Source: Rehaibacterium terrae (GTDB taxonomy: Bacteria; Pseudomonadota; Gammaproteobacteria; Xanthomonadales; Xanthomonadaceae). From it: 64,000 nucleotides of DNA. The stretch is taken from contig NZ_JACHHX010000003.1 in assembly GCF_014202935.1 (NCBI RefSeq), positions 124,001 through 188,000 on the forward strand, read 5' to 3'. Below the pieces are notes generated by a model that had not been told where the DNA came from, made no database searches, and saw only the letters and a program-made list of their open reading frames with translations. Below are positions 4,457 to 6,511 of the stretch, piece by piece. The translations under genes were made by a program, and so were the position numbers. Position 1 is the stretch's first letter. Every line of letters begins with the position of its first letter.

Positions 4457-5001
4457 GAGGGCAGTCTATGCAGCGGTCCGGTCGCCCGCCAGCCCGGCCG
4501 GACGGCGCGTTGGTGACGGTTTCCCGACAGTCTGGATCGAGCCGCTGGCGGCTACGGATGAGACTTACCGGACAAAGCTGTTCCGTTCGTGACAAAGCGG
4601 ACGTAAGGCGCCGTCTTCAATCGGAAAAAACCCTTATCCACACGATCTGTGGATAAGTTTGTGGAAGATCGGCGGGGCAGGTGCCCCTATCTGTGGCGGC
4701 TATGGCTTCTGTGACGAGTTGGTGATTTTTTAACCACAGTGTCATATGTCTTGAAATTCAATGGGTTAGTTAATGCCTGAGGCGCTCCGGCAGTCCTGTT
4801 CAGGGCGATGACAGGATCGTGAAACATCGCCGGCTGGTGCTGTGCACAACGCCTGCCGCTGCAGGCCTTGCGGCAAGGGGTGGAGCGACAGGATCCCGGC
4901 AGGTCAAGCGTTTCACGGCGGCGGCCCGCCGGACCGGTCCACCCTGCCCAGGGCGGACCGACAGCGCCTAGAATCCGGGCTCACGTCTGTTTCCCTGCGC
5001 C
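4457..5001. other. 545-bp intergenic region between priA and the sigma-like gene, with DnaA boxes and an AT-rich tract
   Basis: No coding frame is convincing here. The region holds two perfect DnaA boxes facing each other (4634-4642 and 4648-4656). Two near-boxes with one mismatch each lie at 4730-4738 (TTAACCACA) and 4841-4849 (TGTGCACAA). An AT-rich stretch, unusual in this genome, runs from about 4721 to 4780. A -10-like TAGAAT lies at 4969-4974, 27 bp before the next ATG. It serves at least as the divergent promoter region of priA and the 5002 gene. Confidence 0.6.
4633..4657. promoter_or_regulatory. Paired inverted DnaA boxes
   Basis: CTTATCCACA and its exact reverse complement flank a 5-bp spacer (CGATC), making a dyad with 10-bp arms. 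Both 9-mers match the TTATNCACA DnaA-box consensus exactly. A perfect box twice in 25 bp is not expected by chance in DNA this GC-rich. The site may be part of an origin or a DnaA-controlled regulatory site. Confidence 0.65.
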
Positions 5002-5856
5002 ATGCCCGGCTCCACCTCCCCCCCTTCGCCTGCGGCACTGCAGGCTTTCCTGCGCGGCATCGAGCGGCGCGCCTTCGTGCTTGCCGAGGCCCAGTGCGGC
5101 GATCCCGCCCTGGCCCGGGCCGCGCTGGCGGCGAGCTGCGCCCGGCTGCGGCACGAGGCGGCGGCGTTGCCGCTGCGCGAGTGGCCGTTGCGCTTCTGGG
5201 CCGGGCTGATTGCGCGACCGGAGCTGCGCGACTTCCGGCTGCCGCGCCGGCCGTTGCCTGGACAGGCCGCCTTGGCGGCTCTCTCGCCGGGCGCGCGTGC
5301 CGCGCTGCTGCTGCGGCTGGCCGCCGGCCTGGACCTGCCGCATGTCGCGGCGGTGCTCGGCGTCTCCGAATCGGCGGCGCGGTTGGCGCTGGCGCGCGCC
5401 GTGCGTGCGCTGGGCGCGGACGATGCCGGTGCGGGCGCGGCGTTGCGCGTGCTCGATGCCGCCCTGCATGCCCGCGTGCGCGACCTCCCCGAGGCCGAGC
5501 GTGCCCGGCTGGCCGAGCTGCGCGAGCGCAGTCTGCACGGCGAGGTCGCGGCGGCGACGGGCACGCCTCGCCAGGAACCGCCGCCGCGTCTGTTGCGCTG
5601 GCTGTGGGGCGCGCTGGCGCTGGTGACGGTGCTGTTGCTCGGTACCTTCCTGTGGCCGCCGGCCGGCGAATCGCTGGCGCCGGGCGAGAGCCGGCCGCTG
5701 CCGGAGGCCGCCGTGCCGGCGCTGTCGCCGGAGTCCGCCGCCCTGGCCAGTCCGGATTTCGAACTGCTGGCCGATCCCGAGGGACAGGCGCTGGCCCTGG
5801 ATCTGGCCTTCTACGCCTGGCTGGCGGCGCAGGACGGGGGTGCCGATGCGCGCTGA
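5002..5856 (+). CDS. Degenerate ECF-like sigma factor fused to a membrane-anchored C-terminus (DUF3619-like)
   Basis: A 284-residue protein. Residues about 15-75 loosely resemble ECF region 2 but are eroded. Residues 91-139 (LSPGARAALLLRLAAGLDLP, then HVAAVLGVSESAARLALARA) form a clear sigma region 4 helix-turn-helix. After a helical stretch (ALHARVRDLPEAERARLAEL), one transmembrane segment follows at about 198-218 (LRWLWGALALVTVLLLGTFL). A Pro/Glu-rich tail ends in DFELLADPEGQALALDLAFY. In many proteobacteria sigma, DUF3619 and DUF3106 are separate adjacent genes; here the first two look fused. DUF3106 follows with an 11-bp overlap. The region 4 call is good. The DUF3619 relationship is inference from context and pattern. 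Confidence 0.7.
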   Translation: MPGSTSPPSPAALQAFLRGIERRAFVLAEAQCGDPALARAALAASCARLRHEAAALPLREWPLRFWAGLIARPELRDFRLPRRPLPGQAALAALSPGARAALLLRLAAGLDLPHVAAVLGVSESAARLALARAVRALGADDAGAGAALRVLDAALHARVRDLPEAERARLAELRERSLHGEVAAATGTPRQEPPPRLLRWLWGALALVTVLLLGTFLWPPAGESLAPGESRPLPEAAVPALSPESAALASPDFELLADPEGQALALDLAFYAWLAAQDGGADAR

Positions 5857-6511
5857 GCATCATCGCCTCGGTCGCCTGCTGGCCTGGCTGCTGCTGCCGG
5901 CGCTGGCGCTGGCCGCGCCCCCCACCCTCGACCCGGCGCTACGCGAACTGCTCGCGCCCTGGCTGGCGCGCTGGGACAGCCTGGACGCGGGCGCCCGCGC
6001 GCGCCTGCAAGGCAATGCCCGGCGCTGGCTGGCGCTGGACGAGGCCGGGCGCATCGACTTCCTCGCCCGGGTCGCCGCCTGGGAGGCGCTGCCGCCGGCC
6101 GAGCGTGCGCGTCGACGCGAGGCGTATGCGGCCTGGCGCAGCCTGGAGGCCGGCGAGCGCGCCGCGGTCGCCGCCGCCGCGGCGCGCTACGCCGCGGCCA
6201 CGCCGGAGCGGCAGGCGGCCTGGCGCGAAGCCTTCGACGCGCTCGATCTCGACGTTCGCCGCGCCTGGCTGCTCGGCCCGGAGGCCGGGCGCGACTTCAT
6301 CCGGCTGCGGCCCCTGTTCGCCTTCGTCCCGCCCGAAGAGCACGCGGCGACGCAGGCCCTGCTGCGCAGTCTCACGCCGGCCGCGCGCGAGGACCTGATC
6401 GTGCTGCTGCGCCGGCTGCCACCGGCCGAGTGGGACGCGTTGCGGCGCGAGCTGGTCGCCCTGCCCGAGACGCAGCGCGCGGCGCGGCTGCGGGCGCGTC
6501 TGGCCGACTAG
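5846..6511 (+). CDS. DUF3106 domain-containing exported protein
   Basis: A 221-residue protein starting at ATG 5846; a GTG at 5840 in the same frame is the alternative. The signal peptide ends near LPALALAAPPTLDP. The body is Arg/Ala/Glu-rich and helical, with repeated W..L...ER.R motifs (WLALDEAGRIDFLARVAAWE, LPPAERARRREAYAAW) as in DUF3106. It overlaps the sigma/membrane fusion gene by 11 bp, so the two are probably one transcriptional and functional unit, perhaps in envelope signalling. The function of DUF3106 is not established. A periplasmic location is inferred from the signal peptide. Confidence 0.75.
   Translation: MRAEHHRLGRLLAWLLLPALALAAPPTLDPALRELLAPWLARWDSLDAGARARLQGNARRWLALDEAGRIDFLARVAAWEALPPAERARRREAYAAWRSLEAGERAAVAAAAARYAAATPERQAAWREAFDALDLDVRRAWLLGPEAGRDFIRLRPLFAFVPPEEHAATQALLRSLTPAAREDLIVLLRRLPPAEWDALRRELVALPETQRAARLRARLAD

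Follow-up and report, generated by a model that had tools for sequence, protein, structure and literature searches.

The window analysed here comprises 64,000 nt from the 2.9-Mb genome (G000) of Rehaibacterium terrae, a member of the Xanthomonadaceae, the family that also includes Xanthomonas, Stenotrophomonas and Lysobacter. Two open reading frames on the forward strand (5002–5856 and 5840–6511), which overlap by 17 nt, encode the proteins P0001 and P0002, and the following features were assigned to them:

5002–5856, + strand: fusion gene for P0001 (284 aa), a sigma-like and DUF3619-like single-pass membrane protein (ORF, Pfam, NF006550, family profile)
5029–5232, + strand: worn sigma region 2-like domain of three helices, residues 10–77 (best NF006550 stretch, alignment with separate sigma factors, model block with pLDDT >90)
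5263–5412, + strand: sigma region 4-like helix-turn-helix, residues 88–137 (PF08281, E 8e-8)
5422–5535, + strand: two helices, residues 141–178, matching the cytoplasmic part of DUF3619-type proteins and presumed to be anti-sigma-like (hhalign, model)
5596–5652, + strand: transmembrane helix, residues 199–217, presumed N-in/C-out (hydropathy 1.92, helix in model)
5749–5832, + strand: conserved, presumably periplasmic segment, residues 250–277, DFELLADP...FYAWL (D252 and W273 invariant)
5840–6511, + strand: DUF3106 gene for P0002 (223 aa), whose hydrophobic N-terminus reads as a signal peptide (PF11304, E 6.8e-16)

A composite protein beside priA

A preliminary description of this DNA had read P0001 as a chimera in which an eroded sigma region 2 and a good region 4 helix-turn-helix are joined to a single membrane span and an acidic tail resembling DUF3619, and Pfam, NF006550, hydropathy and hhalign bear out each of these parts. 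Profile searches of separate residue ranges were less uniform in outcome: Sigma70_r4_2 (PF08281) was recovered at residues 88–137 above the Pfam cut-off, whereas residues 1–77 and 144–284, searched alone, gave no Pfam match, and no DUF3619 match was returned for P0001 as a whole either. NF006550, which models the PRK09047 sigma factor, aligned with P0001 in two stretches (E 2.5e-11), yet with 43.4 bits against a curated cut-off of 173 the protein falls short of membership. As the best of these stretches covers residues 9–69 and scores far below the cut-off, the N-terminal part resembles a remnant of a PRK09047-group region 2. P0002, in turn, exceeds the cut-off for DUF3106 (PF11304) clearly (59.1 vs. 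24.3 bits). Where the neighbourhood was examined in relatives, it was conserved, with a divergent priA gene upstream and genes for a DUF4286 protein, a DUF3667 protein and a MATE pump downstream.

The single reading frame is a trait of the family

An initial search of 60 genomes returned matches in 33 of them, including 30 of the 36 from the same family (the genome under study among them). A profile built from the fusion matched 205 of 247 Xanthomonadaceae genomes, in 39 of 54 genera, with E values no higher than 1e-20, a count of profile hits rather than of individually inspected loci; at this threshold, three genomes with separate genes (G022, G032, G035) stayed unmatched, as did two with a fused gene (G122, G014). 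Closer inspection covered the best 80 of 202 relatives (L051–L130), found with the peptide pattern AF[LV]RG[VI]ERR, and in all 80 loci the sigma-like part and the C-terminal part (C-part) shared one ORF. Because the pattern served to find these loci, its conservation in the resulting fusion alignment (A3) arises partly by construction; the 60-genome search and the profile count are free of this bias. Sequences within each set are related, and counts throughout therefore do not represent independent events.

These numbers bear on the most trivial explanation, namely that the fusion is a decaying pseudogene or an assembly frameshift joining two genes that are separate elsewhere. A few members do carry an in-frame stop, e.g. 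L023 (from G013) and G511, and L023 was left out of the initial fusion alignment together with L014, which meets a contig end. Relatives with separate genes do exist, as the preliminary description had anticipated for such a frameshift, but the single ORF is conserved across the family, dN/dS values are low (see below) and partly worn relatives are known, which refutes a frameshift in the window and renders the reading as a pseudogene or assembly error extremely improbable.

Descent from a three-gene operon

Outside the fusion group, the corresponding genes are consecutive and distinct. Among the 60 loci L131–L190, which pool the top 30 DUF3106 matches from a search at the level of order with the top 30 from one at the level of class, 59 harbored ORFs for a sigma factor and for DUF3106, in no case joined into one; the remaining locus (L182) contained DUF3106 alone, and in L141 the sigma gene was split over two ORFs. 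The ORF in the middle was recognised by the C-part profile in 24 of the 60. Next to priA, genes for an extracytoplasmic function (ECF) sigma factor, a DUF3619 protein and a DUF3106 protein occur as three separate units in two genomes of the same family (G032, G035) and in two of another family (G048, G073), in line with the earlier suggestion that P0001 unites genes which are elsewhere separate and consecutive and which belong with DUF3619 and DUF3106.

In a midpoint-rooted tree of DUF3106 sequences, the fusion loci formed one group (SH-aLRT 99), adjoined by the separate-gene loci of G035 and then G032, with supports of 88 and 86, i.e. below the tool's mark of 95. G022, likewise a family member with separate genes, grouped elsewhere in the tree and lacked priA within its 14-kb region, and was for these reasons not counted as a pre-fusion state. 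Many genomes of the family additionally possess a second, separate copy of the operon at another site (L191–L206), which forms its own clade in the DUF3106 tree; priA was absent from the five such regions that were compared.

One locus, L207 of G122, documents a less worn condition. Its 346-aa fusion lies beside priA. In the sigma part, VQ of region 2.2 is still in place, and neither region 2.4 nor the linker has been shortened: the span between two conserved positions measures 77 residues, compared to a median of 75 in separate sigma factors and 37 in fusions. It has, however, lost the aspartate of region 2.4 as well as T-H in the recognition helix, and no Pfam region 2 match was obtained for L207 at E up to 1, so that this protein is not an intact sigma factor either.

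By sequence, gene order and position at the priA locus, the PRK09047/NF006550 operon of ECF sigma factor, DUF3619 and DUF3106 is the direct ancestor of the arrangement in the window. It differs in having three separate genes, a full-length sigma factor and an ECF promoter, whereas in the fusion region 2 is worn, the linker deleted and the ECF-type –10 element lost. We regard this architecture and descent as close to certain.

Signature residues for polymerase contact and –10 recognition are lost

The losses were counted in an alignment that set 50 fusions against 46 separate sigma factors. The glutamine of region 2.2 and the tyrosine following it were each present in 46/46 separate sigma factors and in 0/50 fusions. 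Thirty-nine columns, filled in at least half of the separate rows, were empty in every fusion; they include the invariant aspartate of region 2.4 (46/46 vs. a gap in 50/50), the position adjacent to it, and the linker that leads to region 4. Following the missing aspartate, a basic stretch can still be aligned, but its three arginines drop from 46/46, 44/46 and 44/46 to 34/50, 10/50 and 1/50, respectively. Consistently, Pfam recognised region 2 in 45 of the 46 separate sigma factors and in none of the fusions.

Region 4 fared differently. PF08281 was matched by all 46 separate sigma factors and, at E up to 0.01, by 43 of the 50 fusions, whose region 4 helix also aligns with that of Mycobacterium tuberculosis SigD (3vep; GAVRVAQHRAL). 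This conservation and the alignment with sigma factors identify the region as homologous and dismiss a chance helix-turn-helix, which had been raised as a caveat at the outset. Within the recognition helix, V, K, T and H (each in 46/46 separate sigma factors) were each found in 0/50 fusions, and the DNA specificity must hence have changed, or binding been lost.

Both parts are under purifying selection rather than decaying. After removal of saturated or too-short pairs, median dN/dS values in four groups ranged from 0.00 to 0.31 for the region 2-like part and from 0.14 to 0.19 for the region 4-like part, the tail being more variable (0.09–0.66).

Sigma factors engage core polymerase through region 2.2 and recognise the –10 element through region 2.4. 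Without the signature of region 2.2, the aspartate of region 2.4, most of the adjoining basic residues and the linker, the fusion is not expected to guide RNA polymerase in the way a sigma factor does. The preliminary description had likewise doubted that P0001 is a true sigma factor, and with these signatures and the linker missing from 50/50 fusions, we consider it probable that P0001-type proteins are not; a stronger wording is withheld because part of region 2.4 remains alignable.

This weighs against a mode of action known from IutY (ECF243) of Pseudomonas putida, a sigma/anti-sigma fusion which, according to the portions of the sources consulted, is cut by Prc and RseP, thereby freeing a working sigma domain (PMC8999054, PMC5411451). 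As in IutY, a sigma domain, a membrane segment and a periplasmic part follow one another in a single polypeptide, and the single span, the short outer part and the still alignable stretch of region 2.4 with its first arginine would suit a sigma domain held by its fused anti-sigma until intramembrane proteolysis. However, as far as those portions describe it, IutY contains a working sigma domain and serves an iron-siderophore system, while the present fusion has a worn sigma part and DUF3106 as partner. With the linker, the glutamine of region 2.2 and the aspartate of region 2.4 absent from all 50 aligned fusions, release of a functional sigma factor appears quite unlikely.

The C-part derives from a DUF3619-type protein and is tied to DUF3106

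Compared by hhalign, the C-part of the fusions matched the separate middle genes of relatives with a probability of 98.7% (E 1.5e-16). For these middle genes, an alignment (A4) was assembled from which 13 of 42 candidates (duplicates, truncated or doubtful sequences) were left out; DUF3619 (PF12279) was matched by 20 of the 29 retained, and weakly by 5 of 50 fusion ORFs (E up to 0.01, at best 0.0013). A single hydrophobic span was present in 47/50 fusion C-parts and 28/29 separate middle genes and in 0/46 separate sigma factors. The presumed orientation, with the sigma-like part in the cytoplasm, comes with a small charge difference across the span of P0001 (0 before it, –2 in the next 23 residues and –9 over the whole tail). 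Beyond the span, D252 and W273, invariant in the fusion alignment, are matched in separate DUF3619-type genes.

DUF3106 follows the fusion directly or resides in the same ORF in 79 of the 80 loci L051–L130, the exception (L100) ending with its contig. In 10 of these 80 loci, and in L006, L022, L025 and L026, DUF3106 is part of the fusion ORF itself, yielding a triple fusion. Mapped onto the tree, this same-polypeptide state requires four changes, of which well-supported branches force at least three. The changes could be joinings or splittings; we read them mainly as repeated joining, which suggests that the two proteins work together. With the partly worn fusion in between, a sequential course from three genes to two and on to one can be followed.

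AlphaFold models hint at how the two might interact. In the model of the triple fusion L067, the DF...W segment, which there runs from residue 237, lay in blocks with a pLDDT of 95–97 compared to 70–76 in P0001 alone; judging by this gain in pLDDT, the segment probably docks on DUF3106.

The predicted fold resembles sigma factors held by their anti-sigma factors

The AlphaFold model of P0001 comprised a block with pLDDT ≥90 over residues 11–180, and its fold was sigma-like, with the best matches among sigma chains of sigma/anti-sigma complexes and PhyR. VIA-align ranked CnrH from the CnrY complex at the top (Z 14.1, 3.0 Å, 138 residues), although matches within 1 Z are to be taken as tied; RpoE with NepR (Z 13.9, 2.3 Å, 135 residues), SigW with RsiW (Z 13.5, 3.1 Å, 136 residues), PhyR with NepR (4qic; Z 13.1, 3.0 Å, 120 residues) and SigG1, a sigma factor with an extension of its own and also in a closed fold (7qh5; Z 12.8, 3.1 Å, 142 residues), came next. 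Polymerase-bound SigH chains, on the other hand, superimposed at an rmsd of ~27 Å only. In the model, the cytoplasmic domain thus takes on the arrangement of a sigma factor closed up with its anti-sigma factor. Since Z values as high as 13 may be frequent among helical proteins, the match speaks to arrangement and not to function; Foldseek alone gave no E below 0.001 for the models.

The matches to PhyR raise the alternative of a decoy, in which the worn sigma domain would bind another anti-sigma factor, e.g. the DUF3619 protein of the paralogous operon, and so free the true sigma factor. According to the titles of the structure entries, the response regulator PhyR binds NepR, and its sigma-like fold acts as an anti-anti-sigma. 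That fold is common to PhyR and P0001, but also to ordinary sigma factors, and while a PhyR_sigma-like match (E up to 0.01) was found in 12/50 fusions, 43/46 ordinary separate sigma factors gave one too; the receiver domain characteristic of PhyR was not among the Pfam matches of P0001. A potential client would be at hand in most of the family, given that 225 of 247 genomes encode a PRK09047 sigma factor above the cut-off. The genome of the window does not, nor do G009, G011 and G018, even though all four match the fusion profile, ruling out a decoy for the separate paralogous sigma factor as a general explanation; moreover, the fusion's own DUF3619 segment would occupy the binding site. We therefore rate a decoy function as rather unlikely.

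The promoter kept its –35 half and lost its –10 half

Upstream of the fusion gene in the window, two elements were noted:

4903–4908, + strand: GTCAAG box, probably left over from the –35 element of the ancestral ECF promoter (comparison with upstream regions of relatives)
4969–4974, + strand: TAGAAT, possible and weak sigma70-type –10 box (consensus resemblance)

Separate sigma genes are preceded by GTCAAC-N12..18-CGTT in 72 of 94 upstream regions (a few genes having been fetched twice, e.g. L036 and L152), 67 of them with a spacer of exactly N16, compared to 0.1% in mononucleotide shuffles; among the 22 regions that lack the motif, many belong to genomes of other orders. GTCAAC-N16-CGTT represents an ECF-type promoter, by which these sigma factors presumably control their own synthesis.

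At fusion loci, the window included, GTCAA[CG] was retained in 72/81 cases (10% expected by chance), whereas CGTT at the ECF distance occurred in 0/81, which further disfavors a working sigma domain of the IutY kind. Instead, TAnnAT was found 24–27 nt beyond the box in 61/81 loci (0.08% expected), with the remaining 20 lacking this layout; the hexamer at the sigma70 –35 position showed no consensus. Unlike in most relatives, the GTCAAG box of the window lies 60 nt before the next TA box, the TAGAAT listed above, so that its own promoter is a poor fit to the idea of a fusion acting through this box. A further 25 loci, some of them the same genes as among the 81 (L003 and L057, L005 and L076), had the box in 22 cases and the full layout in 11, the layout being absent from 14. 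In G122, the box is present and the ECF –10 element absent. Judged from these comparisons, protein and promoter changed in parallel: in both, the –10 half is gone and the –35 half retained.

We considered whether the box could instead be the –35 element (TTGACA on the other strand) of the divergent priA gene. A –10-like site at 15–19 nt was found in 0/71 cases, with ~2% expected, which rejects this assignment, though a promoter of another type is possible. Loci whose fusion carries basic residues at positions 127 and 132 (R127/R132) had the layout in 59 of 67 cases, compared to 2 of 14 for the others; since only 2–4 independent changes underlie this association, it is not significant when evaluated on independent pairs.

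Genome-wide, the fusion-type motif was found at seven sites in ten genomes, five of them just upstream of the fusion gene, while four of the ten genomes had none and the reversed control gave zero. Being nearly confined to its own locus, the motif does not support a wider regulon, and that notion was abandoned. The separate-sigma motif, in comparison, occurred at 37 sites in 12 genomes (9 in the control).

This confinement, the loss of the recognition-helix residues and the recurrent one-polypeptide state with DUF3106 would all fit if the cytoplasmic part were a folded plug that contacts neither DNA nor polymerase, and the protein a membrane anchor or envelope factor for DUF3106. Such a plug should, however, have had little reason to keep its region 4-like part under the purifying selection seen in all four groups, or the locus its GTCAA[CG] box, and we hold this explanation to be unlikely. 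A DNA-binding autoregulator, with binding to its own promoter region deduced from the retained box, appears a reasonable possibility, if one that falls short of probable.

Discussion

Taken as a whole, our data are best explained by a membrane-tethered regulator that arose from a sigma/anti-sigma pair and has DUF3106 as its periplasmic partner, a reading that we judge nearly as likely to hold as to fail. Under this model, an operon beside priA, encoding an ECF sigma factor, a single-pass DUF3619 protein (the presumed anti-sigma factor) and a presumably periplasmic DUF3106 protein, was remodelled in the Xanthomonadaceae: its first two genes fused, and the sigma part subsequently lost the signatures for –10 reading and core binding. 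On the outside, DUF3106 might read the state of the periplasm and pass the signal on via the docked tail segment and the one membrane helix, and the state of that segment could decide if the helix-turn-helix of the region 4-like part has access to GTCAA[CG] in its own promoter. The fusion would then be an ordinary transcription factor anchored in the membrane, working on a promoter whose –10 box is of the TATnAT or TAGAAT type.

Put in evolutionary terms, and more tentatively, a sigma factor may have been turned into a tethered, one-polypeptide transcription factor through fusion with its anti-sigma factor and a stepwise loss of –10 reading. Region 2 and the –10 element would have worn away together, whereas region 4 persisted along with the –35 box, the latter as an activator site ~25 nt upstream of a housekeeping-type –10 box. 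In some lineages, with the presumed sensor DUF3106 in the same chain, a three-protein pathway would have been condensed into a single molecule.

Several known systems share individual aspects of this design. CnrH, CnrY and CnrX form a three-part set of sigma factor, membrane anti-sigma factor and periplasmic sensor, and CnrH in complex with CnrY provided the top structural match to P0001; these are, however, separate proteins, with a functional sigma factor. Membrane-bound transcription factors of the ToxR/CadC type combine an N-terminal DNA-binding winged helix, one span and a periplasmic part, a layout like that proposed for the fusion, but the winged helix is a different fold without sigma ancestry. 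Sigma factors of ECF48, ECF52, ECF53 and some of ECF36 carry membrane extensions (PMC8999054, PMC5411451) and, as here, have the sigma factor fused to an anti-sigma-like membrane part. In the consulted portions of these sources, their extensions are described as zinc-finger C-terminal or as N-terminal ones, with no mention of a lost region 2 signature.

The preliminary description had called the arrangement an unusual signalling design. Sigma/anti-sigma fusions as such are known, IutY being a case in point, and what sets the present one apart is the wear of its promoter-reading parts after fusion; the known fusions are described, in the source portions at hand, with working or releasable sigma factors. 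Our literature search, covering its sources in part, met no description of a sigma/anti-sigma fusion with worn regions 2.2 and 2.4, nor any mention of PRK09047 or of a "degenerate sigma factor", and a term search of PMC7406223 found nothing on such fusions. Neither was a mention of DUF3619 or DUF3106 met in the literature searched; both now gain a concrete hypothesis, as a membrane anti-sigma factor and its periplasmic partner, respectively. Collectively, the findings suggest a sigma factor in the course of turning into a different kind of membrane-bound regulator, and they make the conversion of a sigma factor into an ordinary regulator testable in the family of Xanthomonas, Stenotrophomonas and Lysobacter.

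Variant fusion and DUF3106 loci

Six Stenotrophomonas-type loci among the best 80 of 202 relatives (L094, L099, L101, L106, L108 and L111) lack the GTCAA box, the probable remnant of an ancestral ECF –35 element. In their region 4-like helix, neither position 127 nor position 132 retains its basic residue. Otherwise good fusion genes at locus L023 (genome G013) and at G511:C17 are each interrupted by an in-frame TGA that may reflect sequencing error or decay. The Xanthomonadaceae-type fusion locus is also present in two records whose titles name Rhizobium sp. MAG (L061) and Bacillus subtilis (L108); these are probably mislabelled or contaminated. Two DUF3106 loci possess long frames:

L176, 484–1929: long frame of 481 aa, DUF3106 near its end
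L223, 401–1897: long frame of 498 aa, DUF3106 near its end

Likely promoter motif of the separate operons

Many Xanthomonadaceae genomes carry an additional operon of separate sigma, DUF3619 and DUF3106 genes at another genomic site (L191–L206); searching the window's genome for a PRK09047 sigma factor returned no match over the cut-off. Upstream of separate sigma/DUF3619/DUF3106 operons in general, a motif search allowing N12–18 spacers identified GTCAAC-N16-CGTT in 72 of 94 regions (e.g. at L191, L193, L131 and L228), a likely promoter element for autoregulation by sigma factors of the PRK09047 group.
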